From Bacteroidota bacterium (GTDB lineage: Bacteria; Bacteroidota; Bacteroidia; Chitinophagales; LD1): 64,000 nt of DNA. Location: assembly GCA_947479455.1 (NCBI GenBank), contig CANJZE010000002.1:162222-226221 (forward strand), written 5' to 3'. The position numbers and the translations under genes were made by a program. This document shows positions 1 through 7,250 of the stretch, in pieces; the first letter of the stretch is position 1; each line of letters starts with the position of its first letter. The notes under the pieces are model-generated. The model was given only the letters and a program-made list of their open reading frames with translations, did not search any database and was not told the DNA's origin.

Positions 1-1609
1 TGTTGCTTACATTATTATCTCCCGCTGTGGGCGTAACATTTACATCAAAACAAATTTGCGAGCCGAGTGGCGCGGTGGTATCAGTTTGCACTACTATATT
101 AAAATCTGCATTAGGGTTTACAGCCGACCAGTTACTAATGTTATAAGTAAGCGTATTACCCGCAACGCTTGGTATAAGCGCACCACCCGCAGCAGAAACA
201 AACGTAGCCGCACCGCTTATAGTAGTAACCAACTGACCGCTTAAATTATTGGTGTTGCAGTTTTGCCCCCAAAACTGCGCCCAGTCTCCTGCGGGAATAT
301 TTACATAAGCGTTATGTGCAGGCTGAAAAGAATTTGAAACCAAACTCCATGCACCCACATCAAAGCCGGGTTTGCATTGCATCGCAAAATCTTTATCGTA
401 ATCAAATGAATCGAGCGCGGTAATAACCGAAGTATCAAAGCGGCTGGCGGGGCAAAGAATATCAAAAGGAACACCTGTGGTATCTATGGTAGTTTCATAA
501 GTTCCCATATCGGTATCAAACGAATAAATACCATAACCACCGCTATAGTTTTGTTGGGTAAGCACACCGTTTTCATACAGGTTTACTTTCATATTCTGCA
601 CATTGGTTTCTCCTGCATCTTTTATGCAATTGCCGCTGGTATCGTTGTAAACTTTGCCGTTGATGTTCCAATACACCGAGCAGCCGTTTGCGTTGAAGGG
701 GTCGCAGAGGGGAATGGAATCTAAGGAAGGATTACTAAATGAATTTGATTGGGGATAATTGGTTAGGCAGGTGATACCGGTATTAGCAAAGTAAAAATTG
801 ACTATCTTTTTTAGCTCGGGCAGACAATACAAATTAGGATTATAAAAGCAAAAGAATGAAGTTAATGAGTCTGGCAGGTCAGGAACACTACTAAGTAAAT
901 TACCACCACAACTTAACTTAGTTAAGCCATTGGGCAAAATTGGAAGTACAGTAAGTTGATTCCAACCGCAATCGAGTTCTATTAATGAATTTGGTAAAGA
1001 CGGTAAAAGTGAAAGTTGATTATTGCTGCAAATAAGCACATACAAGAAATTTGGTAACGTTGGTAAAGAATTTAATGAATTACCATTACATAACAATCTA
1101 CCTAAGGAACTTGGCAAATCAGGTAATGAACTAAGTAGATTGTTGCGACAATCAAGGAATGATACCGAACTTGGCAGTACAGGCAATGAACTGAGCAGAT
1201 TAGTTCCACAATTAATGGCTATCAATGGGTTTAGCAAAGGTGGTAAAGATACCAGCTGGTTACTCTGGCAATCTAGTTGACTCAAGGAACGAGGCAAAGA
1301 AGGAAGTGAAGTAAGTTGATTATTACTACAATCAAGTAATTGAACATTTGAGAAATATTGGACTCCACTTAGGTCATGAATATTAGCCGCAGAGCAAAAC
1401 ATGCCACCCGCATTCACCACCGCATTACAAGTAGTATCCATCTGCCATCCCACAGTATTATTTCCTTGCAAACAAGTTGAGTAACCATTTGCATTCAACC
1501 ATGTTCCAAAATTCGTATCTGGTATGCTCACCCACTGTGCCTTCAAATCTAATATTGAAAATTGAAGAAGTAATATTGAAATGCAAATGCAGAGGAGGTG
1601 TTTCTTCAT
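1..1609 (-). CDS. LRR and SD-domain surface protein, C-terminus cut by window edge
   Basis: Open reading frame running off the left edge, so the C-terminus (where a T9SS sorting domain would be expected) is not visible. The ATG gives a signal peptide (MKKHLLCIC..., cleavage likely after LKAQ at residue 25). Residues 82-265 hold nine leucine-rich repeats of 20 residues with the pattern LPxLPxSLxxLxCxxNxLxS, the short bacterial type also known from YopM/IpaH proteins, each with a central Cys. After them, around NGKVYNDTSGNCIKDAGE, an SdrD B-like domain begins, followed by Asn/Gly-rich beta-sandwich sequence. Probably an exported surface or adhesion protein; ligand unknown. Its predicted promoter lies in a 70-bp direct repeat immediately upstream. 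The hydrophobic core of the signal peptide is encoded by a heptamer repeat tract. Confidence 0.85.
   Translation of the reverse strand, partial: MKKHLLCICISILLLQFSILDLKAQWVSIPDTNFGTWLNANGYSTCLQGNNTVGWQMDTTCNAVVNAGGMFCSAANIHDLSGVQYFSNVQLLDCSNNQLTSLPSLPRSLSQLDCQSNQLVSLPPLLNPLIAINCGTNLLSSLPVLPSSVSFLDCRNNLLSSLPDLPSSLGRLLCNGNSLNSLPTLPNFLYVLICSNNQLSLLPSLPNSLIELDCGWNQLTVLPILPNGLTKLSCGGNLLSSVPDLPDSLTSFFCFYNPNLYCLPELKKIVNFYFANTGITCLTNYPQSNSFSNPSLDSIPLCDPFNANGCSVYWNINGKVYNDTSGNCIKDAGETNVQNMKVNLYENGVLTQQNYSGGYGIYSFDTDMGTYETTIDTTGVPFDILCPASRFDTSVITALDSFDYDKDFAMQCKPGFDVGAWSLVSNSFQPAHNAYVNIPAGDWAQFWGQNCNTNNLSGQLVTTISGAATFVSAAGGALIPSVAGNTLTYNISNWSAVNPNADFNIVVQTDTTAPLGSQICFDVNVTPTAGDNNVSN
815..1366 (-). repeat. 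LRR array, nine 60-bp units
   Basis: Nine consecutive 60-bp units coding for 20-residue leucine-rich repeats (LPxLPxSLxxLDCxxNQLxS). The last unit has one extra residue. Period and consensus can be read directly in the translation. Confidence 0.85.
1552..1579. repeat. Heptanucleotide tract inside LRR signal peptide
   Basis: Four 7-bp units (atattga, aaattga, agaagta, atattga). Read on the minus strand they encode residues 11-20 of the LRR protein, the hydrophobic core of its signal peptide. The unit is close to the ttcaatt/aattgaa units found upstream of the NtrC-like gene at 52495-52529. Confidence 0.7.
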
Positions 1610-1645
1610 CTGTTTTAATTTTAACCCCGCCTTTGTAAAACTTCA

Positions 1646-1715
1646 GCAGGCAAGTAAAAGTAAACGGTTTTGTTTGAGTTCAAATTTTTGAGATGGAGAA
1701 ATGAAGGAAGATTTA
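1646..1715. repeat. 70-bp direct repeat, copy 1
   Basis: Matches 2511-2580 at 67 of 70 positions without gaps; the differences are at repeat positions 30, 39 and 40. Lies between the LRR gene start and the 55-residue ORF. The two copies are 865 bp apart and bracket a two-gene unit. Sequence on either side of the copies is not similar. Confidence 0.95.
1655..1684 (-). promoter_or_regulatory. Predicted promoter of LRR gene (in repeat copy 1)
   Basis: Minus strand shows TTTG (1684-1681), an 18-nt spacer and TACTTTTA (1662-1655), close to the Bacteroidota TTTG/TAnnTTTG consensus with the last base off. The start codon is 46 nt downstream of the -7 element. The identical arrangement is present in the second repeat copy. 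Confidence 0.45.
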
Positions 1716-1719
1716 GTAT

Positions 1720-1734
1720 GTGCAAAATTTGCAC
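1720..1734. other. Short perfect inverted repeat
   Basis: gtgcaaa-a-tttgcac: seven paired bases around one central base, between the direct repeat and the end of the 55-residue ORF. No U-run follows on either strand, so it is more like an operator-type palindrome than a terminator. Function unknown. Confidence 0.4.
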
Positions 1735-1782
1735 AAGTTGAATTTCGTAAGTTTAGTGGTGAACTAAAATCCGATTCAACGT

Positions 1783-1950
1783 TTACGCTATTGTTTTTAC
1801 TTTCTTGTTTTTTACCGCGCGTAGTTTTCTCATCGCATTCTTAGCCTTTATTTCAGCCATTAGTTTTCTGAAGTCGCGAAGTTCTTCTGCTGTCCAAGGT
1901 TTTGATTGAACGGTAAAGTCAGCATTTTTTGATTCTCTGATTAGTCCCAT
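1783..1950 (-). CDS. Small basic protein (55 aa), partner of GNAT-like gene
   Basis: ATG at 1950, TAA at 1783-1785, giving 55 residues that start MGLIRESKNADFTVQ and include KPWTAEELRDFRKLM, then a Lys/Arg-rich tail (KLRAVKNKKVKTIA). It begins 5 bp after the stop of the GNAT-like gene, so the two are almost certainly co-transcribed and translationally coupled. From memory, Bacteroidota genomes contain similar short proteins opening MGLI-(R/K)-E...DF next to GNAT-like genes, which supports a real gene; this was not searched. No signal peptide or membrane segment. Role unknown; a toxin-antitoxin-like or binding-partner role is only inference from size, charge and coupling. Confidence 0.65.
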   Translation of the reverse strand: MGLIRESKNADFTVQSKPWTAEELRDFRKLMAEIKAKNAMRKLRAVKNKKVKTIA

Positions 1951-1955
1951 GTTGA

Positions 1956-2480
1956 TTATGATTTAAAGTATTGAGCAATTAGTCGCAAAGCTGCCTTTGT
2001 TTCTATAAACATTCTCAAGCCGCGAAAGTGTGTGGCATAAAGCGATTCCTGATAGTGCTTGATTAGTGCGGTCTTGGCATCAAACGCAAGGAAACCTTCA
2101 TAACCCTTATCTACAGAAACCTTACAGGCAAACGCTACAAGATTTCCCGGAACTCCCAAATAAACTTTGTCTTTGTATTTGTTGAATTTTGCGCTTTCAA
2201 TCAGGTGCATGAAAACGTGGTCTTGTTTATCTTCTATGCTTATTAAGCCCTGAATAATGGTTGGATTGTTTACTGTGGTAAGTTTGTAAACTTCCTTGGT
2301 CTTGTCTTTGGTTTCTTTTGTCCAGTCAAATTTCCAATCAGTCTTATTAATTTGTTTTAAATCAGCCGCGGACATTCTTACTACTTCTGTATCGAACACC
2401 TCACCGGTAGAAGTGTTTTCAATAGAGTTGGTGAGTTTGTCAATCACAAAGTCAAGAGGTCTTTTTCTTGATTTCTTCAT
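1956..2480 (-). CDS. GNAT-like protein of two-gene cassette
   Basis: 174 residues. The N-terminal third (LTNSIENTSTGEVFDTEV) resembles leaders of uncharacterised Bacteroidota GNAT-like proteins. The C-terminal half reads like an acetyltransferase fold: a strand pair around NNPTIIQGLISIEDKQDHVF, then YLGVPGNLVAFACKVSVDK, GYEGFLAFDAKT and a final alpha segment with LRMFIETKAALRLI. A clear acetyl-CoA P-loop (Q/RxxGxG/A) is not obvious, so catalysis is unproven. No signal peptide, so presumably cytoplasmic. First gene of a two-gene operon with the 55-residue ORF. The unit is bounded by 70-bp direct repeats and its promoter sits in the upstream copy. Proximity to hicBA suggests a small mobile or toxin-antitoxin-rich island. 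Confidence 0.7.
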   Translation of the reverse strand: MKKSRKRPLDFVIDKLTNSIENTSTGEVFDTEVVRMSAADLKQINKTDWKFDWTKETKDKTKEVYKLTTVNNPTIIQGLISIEDKQDHVFMHLIESAKFNKYKDKVYLGVPGNLVAFACKVSVDKGYEGFLAFDAKTALIKHYQESLYATHFRGLRMFIETKAALRLIAQYFKS

Positions 2481-2510
2481 AATTCCAAAGCTAATAAAAA
2501 AAGTAGTTGG

Positions 2511-2580
2511 GCAGGCAAGTAAAAGTAAACGGTTTTGTTGGAGTTCAAATTTTTGAGACAGAGAAATGAAGGAAGATTTA
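2511..2580. repeat. 70-bp direct repeat, copy 2
   Basis: Second copy of the element at 1646-1715 (67 of 70 identical). Lies upstream of the GNAT-like gene and directly before the hicBA promoter. Confidence 0.95.
2520..2549 (-). promoter_or_regulatory. Predicted promoter of GNAT-like operon (in repeat copy 2)
   Basis: Minus strand TTTG (2549-2546), 18-nt spacer, TACTTTTA (2527-2520), with the ATG 40 nt downstream. Identical boxes to copy 1; one of the three differences between the copies falls in the spacer. Confidence 0.45.
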
Positions 2581-2583
2581 GCT

Positions 2584-2615
2584 GTTGCGATTTTTGATTT
2601 AGATATTTATCTTTG
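2584..2615 (+). promoter_or_regulatory. Predicted hicBA promoter
   Basis: TATCTTTG at 2608-2615 is a perfect TAnnTTTG -7 element, 16 nt before the hicB ATG, with GTTG at 2584-2587 in the -33 position. The same -7 sequence occurs before the DUF433/DUF5615 pair. Confidence 0.55.
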
Positions 2616-2630
2616 TTCAAACAGTATAAC

Positions 2631-2867
2631 ATGAAAGCAAATCCCACCTATACAGCCGTAATGATGCAAGCCAAAGACGGCACTTTTACCGGCTACATTG
2701 AAGAAGTGCCTGCGGTTATTTCGCAAGGCAACAACGAACAGGAGTTACGCGAAAATTTATTAGATGCCCTGCAAATGATGTTGGACTACTATAAAGTTGA
2801 GGCACGCAAATTTTTTCGCAAAACCCCTTCCCTTCAACGTAAAAGAGAAATTCTTTCCCTTGTATGA
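2631..2867 (+). CDS. hicB: HicB-family antitoxin
   Basis: 78 residues from the ATG at 2631. The sequence YTAVMMQAKDGTFTGYIEEVP...SQGNNEQELRENLLDAL is the compact beta-alpha HicB fold that binds the HicA toxin; the C-terminal KREILSLV fits the short antitoxin ends typical of this phylum. As antitoxin it would neutralise HicA and probably repress the operon. The stop overlaps the hicA start as ATGA (2864-2867), the usual translational coupling. HicB-before-HicA order is the reverse of the E. coli arrangement but is common elsewhere. An in-frame upstream start at 2613 would fall inside the predicted -7 box and is unlikely. Confidence 0.85.
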   Translation: MKANPTYTAVMMQAKDGTFTGYIEEVPAVISQGNNEQELRENLLDALQMMLDYYKVEARKFFRKTPSLQRKREILSLV

Positions 2868-3052
2868 AGCGGAACTTTTTTCTGAAGCATCTAAAGCTGC
2901 ACAATTGTGTTTTAGCTCGAGAAGGTTCAAAGCATTCCATCTTTAAAAACTTGGGCAACAACAAAGCCACTACTGTTCCCCGCCATGCAGATTTGAACGA
3001 CATTACCTGCCGTATGATTTGCAAACAATTAGAAATTCCATTTGTGAAATAA
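2864..3052 (+). CDS. hicA: HicA-family mRNA interferase toxin
   Basis: 62 residues, the complete dsRBD-like HicA fold: basic N-terminal helix (MKRNFFLKHLKLHNC), the REGSKHSIF strand with the catalytic His (H24), and the PRHADLND segment before the C-terminal helix. HicA toxins cleave mRNA and tmRNA when freed from HicB. Starts within the hicB stop codon (ATGA). No truncation visible; residues key to the family are retained, so the pair is probably functional. Confidence 0.88.
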   Translation: MKRNFFLKHLKLHNCVLAREGSKHSIFKNLGNNKATTVPRHADLNDITCRMICKQLEIPFVK

Positions 3053-3203
3053 ATTTCTGCTGCGCATAATATCGGCAAGGCAAACATTTTCTTGTCCCAT
3101 TTCTATCGTCCAAAAATATTCTTTCGTTCACACACAATAACTCAAAACTCATTTGCGTTAAGTGGTATCGCTCATTTTAATATTTCGACTTTCGTCCTGT
3201 TAT

Positions 3204-4523
3204 ATGCCTTCGCAAAATTATCTCCCACAAACGCTTAAAGGAACTGCTCTTGTTATTGCTGCGCTGCTCGTGCTTGGTATAATTCCTGAATTTGATTTAG
3301 GCAGTTTTCATTGGAAGCGAGTGAATATTCTGCATGATATTTTTACAAAACAAAAGGATGTGGTGAAAATTGATTCGTCTCAAATCATAAAACCAATTTA
3401 CGTAGATACCTGTAAGAAGGGAGTGCTTTGCGTGGAGGATTATAGCAAAGACACTAGCGGCTTGAATGTCTTTCTTTCCGCACTTGATTCATCTAAAAAA
3501 AGAATTGTGCGCATCGCCTGGTTTGGCGATTCGTATGTAGAAGGCGATATTCTTCTCGACCCTTTGCGCGATTCGATGCAGGCAATCTTCGGTGGAAGCG
3601 GTGTTGGTTTTGTTCCTATAACTTCCGAAGTAGCGGGCTTTCGACAAACGATTATTCATTCGTATGATAACTGGAAAACTTTTGCAATCGTGGGAACAAG
3701 AGATGCCGAACATCCGCTTGGTCCTGCAGGTTTTTCATTTGTAGCTGAAGAAGGAAACGCAGTTTCTTATACTGCTGAAAAAAGAATTCGCCTCAACAAT
3801 TTTCCTACTGCAAAATTGTATTACGGAAACTGCGATAGTGCTCTAGTAACCGCAAACGGAAATGAAATTGGGTTAGCCACAGTAAAATCTGTTCATCAAA
3901 AAAACCTTGGAGAGAATCTTTCATCATTGAAATTATCTGTAAAAGGCAAAGCAGATTTATATGGTGTTTCTCTCGAGAGCAAAACAGGAATTTGTATTGA
4001 CAATTTTTCGATGCGCGGTAATTCAGGAATAGGATTGAATTATGTGAACGAAAAAATGTTCCGTGATTTTGATTCCATTCATCCTTACGATTTGATTGTG
4101 CTTAGCTATGGTTTGAATGTGGCGAATGAAAAATCGAAAAACTACGATTGGTATACGCGCAGCATGAAGCCAACTATCGCTATGATGAAGCGCTCTTTTC
4201 CTCACAGTTCAGTTTTAGTTATCGGGTGCAGCGATAGAGCAGAGAAAATAGATGGCGAATTACAAACCATGCCTTCGGTAAAACGATTGATTAACGTGCA
4301 GCGCAAAATGGCGGCTGATAATGAAGTTTGCTTTTGGAATTTGTTTGAAGCTATGGGCGGTGACTCAACGATGATTCGCTGGGCAAATATGCCGAAACAT
4401 GCTTTAGCCAATAAGGATTATACGCACTTAAGTTTTTACGGAGGAAGGAAAGTGGCGAACATTTTTTTACAAACGATTTTATACGAGAGAGAAAAATATG
4501 AACGCAGGCGAATTAGTAAATGA
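3204..4523 (+). CDS. Membrane-anchored SGNH-fold hydrolase/acyltransferase
   Basis: 439 residues from ATG 3204 (a GTG at 3162 is possible but adds only poor sequence). An N-terminal hydrophobic segment (TALVIAALLVLGIIP) suggests export with membrane anchoring. SGNH blocks are visible: block I WFGDSYVEGD with the nucleophile Ser, block III SYGLNVANE, and block V DYTHLSFYGG with Asp and His. In this context such proteins act as esterase or acyltransferase partners of MBOAT proteins, moving acetyl or other acyl groups onto exported polysaccharide (compare AlgJ/AlgX, PatB). Followed 20 bp later by a second SGNH gene and then the MBOAT gene, a three-gene operon. Confidence 0.8.
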   Translation: MPSQNYLPQTLKGTALVIAALLVLGIIPEFDLGSFHWKRVNILHDIFTKQKDVVKIDSSQIIKPIYVDTCKKGVLCVEDYSKDTSGLNVFLSALDSSKKRIVRIAWFGDSYVEGDILLDPLRDSMQAIFGGSGVGFVPITSEVAGFRQTIIHSYDNWKTFAIVGTRDAEHPLGPAGFSFVAEEGNAVSYTAEKRIRLNNFPTAKLYYGNCDSALVTANGNEIGLATVKSVHQKNLGENLSSLKLSVKGKADLYGVSLESKTGICIDNFSMRGNSGIGLNYVNEKMFRDFDSIHPYDLIVLSYGLNVANEKSKNYDWYTRSMKPTIAMMKRSFPHSSVLVIGCSDRAEKIDGELQTMPSVKRLINVQRKMAADNEVCFWNLFEAMGGDSTMIRWANMPKHALANKDYTHLSFYGGRKVANIFLQTILYEREKYERRRISK

Positions 4524-4552
4524 GCAAATTTGAAAATGAATAAATGAATAAT
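4518..4552. repeat. Heptanucleotide tract between SGNH genes
   Basis: Five degenerate 7-bp units (such as aaatgag, gaaaatg, aataaat, gaataat) covering the end of the first SGNH gene and the start region of the second. Contiguous, apart from 3 bp, with the agtccga tract. Confidence 0.55.
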
Positions 4553-5803
4553 AAAAGTCCGAAGTCCGAAGTCCGAAGTCCGAACGCGAACATCCGAGTT
4601 GTTGCGGCTGTTGTCTATTGTCTATTGTCTAACATCTATAGTCTAACTGCACAAACGAAATACCCCTTCATTCACGAAGAGCGAAACGAAATAGTTGGCG
4701 ATAAAGTGCTTGATGGTTTTTTTGAAAAGTTATATCAACAAAAAACCAACAACAATCAACGTATTAACGTATTGCAGATTGGCGATTCGCATATTCAGGC
4801 AGATATGTTGAGTGGAATTGTGCGCAGTAATTTTCAAACCGATTTCGGAAACGCAGGAAGAGGTTTGGTTGTGCCTATACGCGTAGCGCGAAGTAACGAA
4901 CCCTCTAACTATAAAATTACGAGCAATGTGAAATGCTATGGTAAACGTTGCGTATACATTGGCGATTCGCTTGATTACGGCATTGGAGGTTTTGTGGTAA
5001 AGACCAGTGACGACACCGCGCAGTTCCGTATTCGCACTTTCGATTATGGCGCGTTGAATTATTCCTTTCATAAGGTCACTTTGTTTTACCAGCAAGATTC
5101 TTCTTACAATTTTTCTATTGAAGATACTTTGGGAAACCTGCTCGCTTCAATTCAAAAAGATTCTTCTACACGAAATGTTTCTACTACAACACTTTCAATA
5201 AACACCAATGACATTATTCTCAAAGCGCATCGCAACGATTCTTCGCAAAACAGTGCCACGCTTTATGGTTTAAATTTAGAAAACGACAGCAACGGTGTAA
5301 TTTATCATGCTATCGGTGTAAATGGTGCAGAAGCATTTCAATATGTGCAAGCCAAATATTTTTCAGAACAAACACAAATGCTTCGCCCCGATTTGATTAT
5401 TGTTTCTCTCGGCACTAACGAAGCTAATCGCAGACCATTCAATAATGAATTGACTGCCGCGCGTTTAGATTCATTAGTAAAACAATTGCAAAAGTACAAT
5501 CCGAACACTCCAATACTTTTAACCACACCGCCCGATTCTTATTACGGTCGCAAATATTACAACCCAGCGGTTTCTGCTATGCACGTTATTATAGTTGATT
5601 ATGGTAAAGAGCATGACCTGCCCGTGTGGGATTTATTTTCCGCCACCGGTGGTTTTAAAAGCTGCTACCAGTGGAAGAAATATAAGTTGATGCGTAAAGA
5701 TGGCGTTCACTTTTCGCGCGCGGGTTATGAATTGCAGGGAAATCTTTTGTATGAAGCGTTGATGAAATCTTACAACAAATATGTCAGCGTTCGACCTCAA
5801 TAA
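4544..5803 (+). CDS. Secreted SGNH-fold hydrolase/acyltransferase
   Basis: 419 residues. SGNH block I QIGDSHIQAD (nucleophile Ser), block III SLGTNEANR, block V KDGVHFSRAGY (Asp-x-x-His). Exported: signal peptide with cleavage near SLTAQ. No other in-frame ATG exists before the mature domain, so the start at 4544 is forced, although the first 35 residues are encoded by two heptamer tracts (agtccga x4 and tgtctat-like x5). Overlaps the MBOAT start by 23 bp. Predicted to work with the preceding SGNH protein and the MBOAT to acylate a surface glycan; donor and acceptor unknown. Confidence 0.82.
   Translation: MNNKSPKSEVRSPNANIRVVAAVVYCLLSNIYSLTAQTKYPFIHEERNEIVGDKVLDGFFEKLYQQKTNNNQRINVLQIGDSHIQADMLSGIVRSNFQTDFGNAGRGLVVPIRVARSNEPSNYKITSNVKCYGKRCVYIGDSLDYGIGGFVVKTSDDTAQFRIRTFDYGALNYSFHKVTLFYQQDSSYNFSIEDTLGNLLASIQKDSSTRNVSTTTLSINTNDIILKAHRNDSSQNSATLYGLNLENDSNGVIYHAIGVNGAEAFQYVQAKYFSEQTQMLRPDLIIVSLGTNEANRRPFNNELTAARLDSLVKQLQKYNPNTPILLTTPPDSYYGRKYYNPAVSAMHVIIVDYGKEHDLPVWDLFSATGGFKSCYQWKKYKLMRKDGVHFSRAGYELQGNLLYEALMKSYNKYVSVRPQ
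4556..4583. repeat. agtccga x4 perfect heptamer repeat
   Basis: Four perfect tandem copies of agtccga in the 5' coding end of the second SGNH gene (residues 5-14). A gain or loss of one unit would shift the frame, so it could in principle phase-vary expression. Confidence 0.9.
4612..4646. repeat. tgtctat-type heptamer tract in signal peptide
   Basis: Five units (tgtctat, tgtctat, tgtctaa, catctat, agtctaa) encoding the hydrophobic core of the SGNH signal peptide (VYCLLSNIYSLT). Related units occur at 15443-15470, 62502-62536 and, inverted, at 47944-47978. Confidence 0.85.
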
Positions 5804-7250
5804 ATTCTTTTACCAGTTTGCGTACCACCGCAACGAGCCGTTGATTTTCAGCACGGGTCTTTTCCTGTGGATGTTCCTGTTTTTCGTTGGTGGCTTTTAT
5901 TTGCTTCGCAAAAGGCGCGACCCAAAACTGATATATGTAATTCTGTTTTCGCTTTACTTCTATTACAAAAGCAGCGGAATTTATTTTCTGTTACTCATTC
6001 TTTCAACTGTAGTTGATTATACCCTCGCCAATTTTATTTATACCGCTAACACTCAAAACATAAAACGCGCGTGGTTAATTTTTAGTTTGACTTTAAATCT
6101 TGGCTTGCTTGCGTATTTCAAATACACCAACTTCCTCTACGAAATTTTCTGCAATCTCACCCAACATCATTACGACCCGTTCAGTATTTTCTTACCTGTA
6201 GGTGTTTCGTTTTTTACCTTTCAATCGCTTAGTTATACCATTGAAATTTATCGTGGCGATTTAAAACCTGTGAAACGAATTCTTGATTACGCTTTCTTCG
6301 TTTCCTTTTTTCCGCAGCTCGTGGCGGGGCCTATTGTGCGCGCAAAAGATTTTTTGCCGCAAATAAATTTGCCCACGATTGTTACACAAGCCATGTTTGG
6401 TGAAGGAGTTTTTCTGATTGCAACCGGTCTGTTTAAGAAGGCTGTCATCTCCGATTTTATTTCCATCAATTTTGTTGATAGAATTTTCGACAACCCCACG
6501 CTTTACACCGGTCTCGAAAATCTTTTTGGCGTGTATGGTTACGCGCTGCAAATCTATTGCGACTTCAGCGGTTATAGCGACATGGCAATTGGCATCGCAC
6601 TTCTCTTTGGATTTAAACTTTGTTTGAATTTCGATTCGCCATATCAAAGTTCGAGCATTACAGAATTTTGGAGACGTTGGCATATTTCTTTGTCGAGCTG
6701 GCTTCGCGACTACCTCTATATTTCATTAGGCGGAAATCGCAAAGGCCGCCTGCGCACTTACCTCAATCAGTTTCTCACTATGTTGCTCGGTGGCTTGTGG
6801 CATGGTGCTGCTTTTCGCTTTGTGCTTTGGGGTGCACTTCATGGTGTGGCTCTCGGCATTGATAAATTCATCAAAGAGCAATTCAAAATTCCCGACACCA
6901 AATTTTTCAAAATTGCTGGCGTGTTCATCACGTTTCACTTCGTTTGTTTCTGCTGGATATTCTTCCGAGCAGATACTATGGCGCTCGCAGGCGATGTGCT
7001 TTCGCAAATTGCTTTTCACTTCACGCCTTCTGTGTTTTTCAGTTTCATCACGGGTTACAAAAACATTTTGTTGGTGATGTTGCTCGGCTATGTGCTTCAT
7101 TTTGTTCCCAAAAATATTGAACTCAAAACCCGCGCATGGGTAACCGATATGCCACTACAAGCCAAGGTTGCTTTAATGGTAGCGGTGATTGTGCTGGTGA
7201 TTCAGGTAAAGAGTTCAGAGATACAGCCGTTTATTTATTTCCAGTTTTAG
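5781..7250 (+). CDS. MBOAT-family O-acyltransferase (AlgI/DltB-like)
   Basis: 489 residues, about ten membrane segments. Family signature: PVGVSFFTFQSLSYTIEIYRG, PQLVAGPIVRAKDFLP, FCDFSGYSDMAIG-type motif (IYCDFSGYSDMAIGIALLFG), EFWRRWHISLSSWLRDYLYI and the essential His region GGLWHGAAFRFVLWGALHG (H341, H354). These integral membrane enzymes carry acyl groups from the cytoplasm across the membrane to periplasmic SGNH partners. The start overlaps the upstream SGNH gene by 23 bp; the alternative Met would remove part of the first membrane segment. Part of a three-gene operon for acylation of an exported glycan. Confidence 0.92.
   Translation: MSAFDLNKFFYQFAYHRNEPLIFSTGLFLWMFLFFVGGFYLLRKRRDPKLIYVILFSLYFYYKSSGIYFLLLILSTVVDYTLANFIYTANTQNIKRAWLIFSLTLNLGLLAYFKYTNFLYEIFCNLTQHHYDPFSIFLPVGVSFFTFQSLSYTIEIYRGDLKPVKRILDYAFFVSFFPQLVAGPIVRAKDFLPQINLPTIVTQAMFGEGVFLIATGLFKKAVISDFISINFVDRIFDNPTLYTGLENLFGVYGYALQIYCDFSGYSDMAIGIALLFGFKLCLNFDSPYQSSSITEFWRRWHISLSSWLRDYLYISLGGNRKGRLRTYLNQFLTMLLGGLWHGAAFRFVLWGALHGVALGIDKFIKEQFKIPDTKFFKIAGVFITFHFVCFCWIFFRADTMALAGDVLSQIAFHFTPSVFFSFITGYKNILLVMLLGYVLHFVPKNIELKTRAWVTDMPLQAKVALMVAVIVLVIQVKSSEIQPFIYFQF

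Follow-up and report, generated by a model that had tools for sequence, protein, structure and literature searches.

A candidate GNAT toxin–short antitoxin pair of Bacteroidota, probably inserted with a 71-bp target duplication

Results

Two adjacent ORFs lie between the copies of a 71-bp direct repeat

The window, that is, the whole 64,000-nucleotide stretch analyzed here (contig CANJZE010000002.1 of a Bacteroidota genome, positions 162,222 to 226,221), contains two adjacent minus-strand ORFs bracketed by a direct repeat. The features of the locus, in window coordinates, are as follows.

933–1340, minus strand: LRR-like gene, recognized by eye, to the left of the unit
1646–1716, no strand: left direct-repeat copy, between the LRR-like gene and the pair; matches 2511–2581 at 68 of 71 positions; putative target duplication
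1717–1782, no strand: spacer from the repeat to the partner stop codon; unconserved (identity 0.28–0.32 past the partner stop in close relatives)
1783–1950, minus strand: ORF of the 55-aa partner, proposed antitoxin or immunity protein
1956–2480, minus strand: ORF of the 174-aa protein with a predicted GNAT fold, proposed toxin (from the ORF and the predicted structure)
2481–2510, minus strand: 30-bp segment with a TAGCTTTG box, likely the -7 element of the pair promoter (from the sequence)
2511–2581, no strand: right direct-repeat copy, upstream of hicB; matches the left copy
2631–2867: hicB (UPF0150, 22.7 bits, below the cut-off)
2864–3052: hicA (HicA_toxin, 38.1 bits, above the cut-off)

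The 55-aa ORF begins 5 bp past the stop codon of the 174-aa ORF. The LRR-like gene has internal repeats at multiples of 60 nt.

Positions 1646–1715 and 2511–2580 are identical at 67 of 70 bases, extension to 1716 and 2581 gives 68 of 71, and the starts of the copies are 865 bp apart. Such identity is far beyond chance. A search of the whole genome with the repeat (3.76 Mb, 70 contigs) recovered the two copies (E 3.9e-31 and 6.4e-27) and no third one. Realignment and this search bore out the preliminary description of a two-gene unit with that repeat spacing and identity, and the hicB and hicA matches at 2631–3052 confirmed its placement of hicBA beside the pair. The repeat was absent from the other members of the genus when 18 genomes were searched with a query containing one copy. 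Folding of the repeat was equal to that of shuffled sequences (z 0.2 to 0.7, both copies and both strands), and therefore it is not attC-like. Rfam at gathering scores gave no match in window positions 1–6000, and the ORF list of the unit contained no transposase-like ORF.

Conservation ends at the partner stop codon

The ends of the unit were compared among relatives that are at least 78% identical. Conservation between relatives stops at the partner stop codon, and the only conserved non-coding sequence is the 30 bp before the first ORF (identity 0.60 and 0.50, compared with ∼0.3 further out). The -7 consensus of Bacteroidota promoters is TAnnTTTG, and we take the TAGCTTTG box at 2481–2510 to be such an element. 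The inner unit measured 794–977 bp in the 14 loci, at whose inner ends no shared sequence was seen by eye.

The 174-aa protein has a predicted GNAT fold

Searches of Pfam, PADLOC, NCBIfam and PHROGs returned no credible family for either protein, and the PADLOC library, searched for a defense role, gave 0 families for the pair. A sequence profile of the 174-aa protein found nothing credible in the PDB (best E 0.19). An AlphaFold model of the protein, built with 24 sequences (pLDDT 60.5, pTM 0.60), has its secondary structure elements in GNAT order. The top Z-scores were obtained with the tRNA-acetylating toxins TacT3 (Z 11.9, rmsd 2.8, 140 aligned residues) and AtaT (Z 10.8); KacT and GmvT were also among the best, and the GNAT-Xre toxin PacT (PA3270, 1yre) scored 10.6. 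Foldseek placed TacT3 first (E 1.4e-4), and its top rows were mostly spermidine acetyltransferases (SpeG).

On the strength of this model, whose confidence is modest (pLDDT 60.5), the fold is GNAT, and a toxin class is favored. What had been a guess from reading the sequence, the label 'GNAT-like', thus gains support from the fold matches to TacT3 and AtaT and from Foldseek. All 24 diverse members compared have Tyr143 (Y143), which lies in the penultimate helix of the model, the position expected for the general-acid Tyr. PDB titles name AtaT Y144 and KacT Y145 as mutants, and we infer from the model that Y143 is equivalent to these residues.

An ordinary metabolic acetyltransferase operon, non-toxic and flanked by repeats that arose by chance or from IS elements, would account for part of these results: no TA family model matches, GNAT folds have many functions, SpeG proteins make up most of the top Foldseek rows, and the model confidence is modest. 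The best Z-scores, however, come from tRNA-acetylating toxins.

A short partner gene is conserved behind the 174-aa gene

After exclusion of the loci followed by a long ORF, 116 remained, and a profile search detected a matching short ORF in 110 of these, with a profile made from the same ORFs that it scored; this frequency also argues against a metabolic operon. An intact first ORF was accompanied by the short partner in 95 loci and a broken one in 15, while the rest comprised one intact first ORF without partner, two broken ones without partner, and three contig edges. The long gene was thus broken and the partner kept 15 times, and the reverse was found once. The 15:1 asymmetry fits the loss of a toxin before its antidote, but it does not reach significance when gene length alone defines the null (p 0.075), and some of the 15 retained partners are weak or damaged (L035, L050).

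The order, long gene followed by short partner, is conserved. The median pN/pS was 0.13 for the first gene, and for the partner 0.15 over the first 36 codons and 0.34 overall (17 close-relative loci; 78–104 of 136 pairs within limits). Both genes of the pair are under purifying selection. Pfam and NCBIfam revealed no RHH, XRE or other credible domain in the 55-aa partner. Outside Bacteroidota, the short partners have position and size in common with the 55-aa protein, without clear sequence similarity to it.

The pair is patchily distributed and a phage homologue is fused to a MuF protein

Homologues of the 174-aa protein were found at 35 loci on GTDB contigs, whose record titles place them in Bacteroidota. 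With a cut-off of E 1e-20, homologues were detected in 60 of 396 genomes from the order and in 23 of 395 from the phylum; with E 1e-3, 14 of 60 near relatives had one. One congener has seven homologues of the 174-aa gene in a single genome (G011). Seven plasmid records, six from Paenibacillus and one from Treponema, carry a homologue; those covering at least 80% of the query are 33–39% identical, and a short ORF follows the gene in both records inspected. The search with the 174-aa protein gave one match among phage records, and no viral contig matched the protein of the window, that of Treponema or that of the relative L104. Two adjacent conserved genes and a patchy spread, both features of TA modules, are thus present.

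In Fusobacterium phage phiPaco (L209:1756-3503), a Phage_Mu_F minor head protein has the homologous domain at its C-terminal end, and there is a 4-base overlap between the stop codon of this fusion and a 58-aa ORF. The same domain (95–100% identical) and the same small ORF are present in five IMG/VR contigs, where the long ORF is 524 aa with a similar N-terminus in three and is represented by ORFs of 302 and 164 aa in two. The anatomy of a MuF toxin is therefore found in the Fusobacterium phage homologue and not in the stand-alone window gene. Fusion to a phage MuF protein speaks against a metabolic operon. On the phage side, the MuF protein with a GNAT-like domain and the 58-aa gene (L209, L210-L214) form a possible GNAT toxin/immunity pair.

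The most distant homologues (group B, with L054, L097 and L141 among them) are followed by a longer gene, which contains HTH_3 in L054. Judging from their gene content, group B loci look like GNAT-Xre modules.

The preliminary description had offered two ideas, a toxin–antitoxin-like cassette or a small mobile unit. The conserved gene order, the GNAT fold and the MuF fusion with its small gene support the former.

Bracketing repeats recur at relatives of the pair

A locus was scored as bracketed when a direct repeat scoring 40 bits or more was present within 400 bp on both sides. L051 (no tblastn match) and L056 (same place as L053) had been left out beforehand, and nine more were dropped, five because no partner was called and four because their flanks were short, leaving 107. 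L058, one of the five partner-less loci, has a repeat of more than 40 bits, and L023 is not counted, as its partner ORF extends into the repeat. Bracketing was detected at 25 of 107 pair loci with the window as one of them (24 of 106 without it), and 82 loci had no bracketing repeat of 40 bits. At control positions in the same loci, 13 of 706 were bracketed. Fisher's test gave p ∼9e-15 with the window included and the positions treated as independent, which the control positions are not, as the 13 matches cluster in only 6 loci. A first, smaller test at 30 bits gave 13 of 53 pair loci and 12 of 429 controls. None of 17 group B loci (next ORF >100 aa, mostly XRE-like) was bracketed.

The 25 bracketing repeats measure 25–200 bp, with copies 71–100% identical. 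Because identity falls as low as 71%, many of the insertions would be old. The repeats are mutually unrelated, except for those of L021 and L028. By eye, the repeats of L021, L028, L048, L111 and probably L106 are attC-like, and that of L085 is an IS-like piece; with these cases removed, 19 of 107 pair loci remain bracketed.

The attC-like cases raise the question of an integron, in which the pair would be a cassette within an array and the repeats its attC sites. Besides the four relatives that lie between such repeats by eye (L021, L028, L048, L111), this explanation is favored by the folding of the L021 repeat (-21.3 kcal/mol, z -2.7) and by a crude attC scan, in which 4 of 110 pair loci (L021, L028, L034, L109) and 0 of 140 controls reached a score of -12 or lower with a finder that missed sites attC-like by eye. 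The window repeat, however, folds no better than shuffled sequences and occurs in just two copies in its genome, and at seven pair loci the repeats sit in ordinary host genes. An integron origin is therefore very improbable for the window unit.

Repeats span the ends of host genes, and one relative has an empty site

Pfam-named genes hold the repeats at those seven pair loci, six of the 25 bracketed ones plus L023:

L003: 78 bp, Ku
L104: 86 bp, RarA/MgsA
L041: 114 bp, ABM monooxygenase
L127: 200 bp, ExbD
L130: 159 bp, IMS polymerase
L095: 139 bp, luciferase-like monooxygenase
L023: 42 bp, FtsX permease

Each of these seven repeats covers or abuts either the start or the end of its host gene, and consequently one full gene remains. 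The remaining repeats, that of the window among them, have no assigned gene.

The insertion point of the L104 module is the start of rarA. In the sister genomes G479 and G502, the matches to its two flanks have an 82-bp overlap, that is, one repeat copy is present and the module is absent. Among five further genomes of the L104 genus, the flank matches are 34 and 232 bp apart in two, ∼0.8 and 2.0 kb of unaligned sequence separates them in another two, and one has no match. At L130, the sisters G052 and G032 have the Pol IV end once, and the other flank differs. No empty site was found at L041 (same genus as the window), where the right flank is conserved and the left one is not.

A search of 18 genomes of the genus with window positions 2511–3300 revealed no empty site for the window copy; only a GDSL locus, from ∼3102, was common with the window. 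An empty site with a single repeat, for which the preliminary description had suggested a search, was thus found for the relative L104, in G479 and G502, and none was found for the window copy itself. In six sister loci (2.8–6.5 kb compared in each), neither the LRR gene nor the pair nor hicBA is present. Synteny breaks at ∼3102 (window 2631–3102), the downstream GDSL gene being common to the six sister loci. From the gene arrangement, hicBA may have arrived separately.

The repeats might also have existed before the pair, which would then lie between two intergenic copies or have entered by Campbell-type integration of a circle that carried a single copy. Such a circle would yield an identical anatomy, and L034 and L046 are bracketed by short-palindrome repeats that are REP-like by eye. 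Three observations speak against it: the window repeat is not dispersed in its own genome, the rarA site is single-copy in two sisters, and different loci have unrelated repeats, bar one attC-like pair. We consider this origin unlikely.

Together with the patchy spread and the 25 of 107 bracketed loci, the L104 empty site supports the suggestion of a small mobile unit.

HicA and ParE loci are bracketed as well

Other families were analyzed alike, with three gap geometries and 40 bits for all groups. Loci whose flanks were truncated at a contig end were dropped, which left 104 of 111 pair loci, 27 of 30 HicA, 25 of 30 ParE and 25 of 30 non-TA Acetyltransf_3 loci of the same order; the 30 loci of each of the latter three families were the best matches rather than a random sample. 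Group B was cut from 17 to 15 by excluding L134 and L139, which are not clearly XRE-partnered. Bracketing was found at 26 of 104 pair loci, 5 of 27 HicA loci and 6 of 25 ParE loci, the HicA and ParE counts pooling possible target duplications, IS pieces and attC sites. Only one of 15 GNAT loci with an XRE-like partner was bracketed, by tandem paralogues, and none of the 25 Acetyltransf_3 loci was (pair versus Acetyltransf_3, Fisher p 0.004). A separate HicA run covered 28 of 30 loci.

Some repeats at the HicA loci (L177-L206) and the ParE loci (L215-L244) may be IS or dispersed pieces, and the 217-bp repeat of L219 resembles a transposase fragment by eye. Near the modules of L012 and L177 there is similar sequence, which by eye resembles a group II intron end.

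The pair is not alone in having this scar, because loci of two unrelated TA families, HicA and ParE, are bracketed too. The absence of bracketing at the Acetyltransf_3 loci argues further against a metabolic acetyltransferase operon, which we regard as improbable. This contrast could also reflect mobility as such and not TA nature, the Acetyltransf_3 family being presumably mostly non-mobile.

Discussion

These data suggest that (i) the window pair belongs to a new family in which a putative GNAT toxin is combined with a short putative antitoxin; and (ii) the pair was inserted with a 71-bp target duplication. We assign this reading a probability of roughly two in three. The likeliest origin of the repeats is long target duplication, as has been described for restriction-modification genes.

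The following sequence of events is proposed. The GNAT-fold toxin would acetylate aminoacyl-tRNA or a similar amine and thereby halt growth, and the ∼55-aa partner would neutralize it. The unit would carry its own short promoter, and neither a transposase nor conserved ends were seen in it. Insertion between the LRR-like gene and hicB would have duplicated 71 bp of the target and left one copy on each side, most simply by a replicative template switch or by staggered-break repair. The insertion would then have been retained because of the addictive nature of the gene pair. Recombination between the repeat copies could later delete the unit, and clean removal of the pair in this way is plausible.

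A broader proposal, to which we would give slightly less than even odds, is that unrelated TA modules of Bacteroidota (the GNAT pair, HicA, ParE) spread as transposase-free units of 0.8–1 kb with duplications of 25–200 bp, through a shared host process, and become fixed by addiction. Neighboring genes would stay whole as the duplication covers the start or the end of the gene. The movement of transposase-free TA modules is, to our knowledge, an open question. If the proposal is true, TA modules would be a class of mobile elements with a recognizable scar of their own, as proposed for restriction-modification genes. Such a scar can be counted (pair 26/104, HicA 5/27, ParE 6/25, Acetyltransf_3 0/25), which makes TA movement testable. 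The pair itself would extend the GNAT toxins by a family that has a very short antitoxin and is missing from the four family libraries searched, and would link chromosomal modules to a phage-borne MuF protein.

Comparison with known systems

A literature search with coverage of few subscription journals gave, among the matches listed, no description of the pair or of a TA scar. Flanking direct repeats are noted for one mycoplasma TA pair in a passage of PMC8562856.

The predicted GNAT fold and the two-gene module liken the window pair to the GNAT type II TA systems TacAT, AtaRT and KacAT, to whose toxins, however, the window protein is only about 10–17% identical. Unlike GNAT-DUF1778/RHH modules, the window pair has the toxin gene first and a ∼55-aa partner without RHH. 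The pairs listed by Makarova et al. (2009) include both GNAT-RHH and GNAT-Xre ones, for which the relevant passage considers resistance likelier than a TA function (PMC2701414). A GNAT-Xre pair that has been tested experimentally is PacTA, whose toxin PacT is described as acetylating aminoacyl-tRNAs and causing translation arrest (PMC9561280). The window pair resembles this class in that PacT is among the structural matches and the distant homologues have an XRE-like gene behind; in contrast, the window pair has no HTH protein, and 0 of 17 group B loci are bracketed.

One recognized class of phage toxins consists of MuF proteins whose C-terminal toxin varies (Jamet et al., 2017; PMC5576092). 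The phage homologue, with its C-terminal homologous domain and a small gene behind, is similar to these polymorphic toxins, whereas the window version is stand-alone. A term search of the main text of Jamet et al. (2017) found neither 'GNAT' nor 'acetyltransferase'. Phage polyvalent proteins with GNAT domains, and enzymatic domains fused to MuF, are described in passages of PMC5512222, which contain no MuF-GNAT fusion.

Long direct repeats, read here as probable target duplications, are the feature that the locus has in common with a further class of insertions: they measure 71 bp in the window and 25–200 bp in relatives, and flank the unit on both sides. Nobusato in 2000 and Furuta in 2010 reportedly described the insertion of restriction-modification genes with long target duplication. 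According to a section of a review, some of these genes have long duplications of variable length, of the order of 100 bp (PMC3874152), and the part of a paper on restriction-modification mobility that concerns duplications mentions only short ones (PMC4615327). The window unit differs from such insertions in having no restriction-modification genes; it resembles them as a module that is free of any known mobile element and flanked by long, probable target duplications of variable length.
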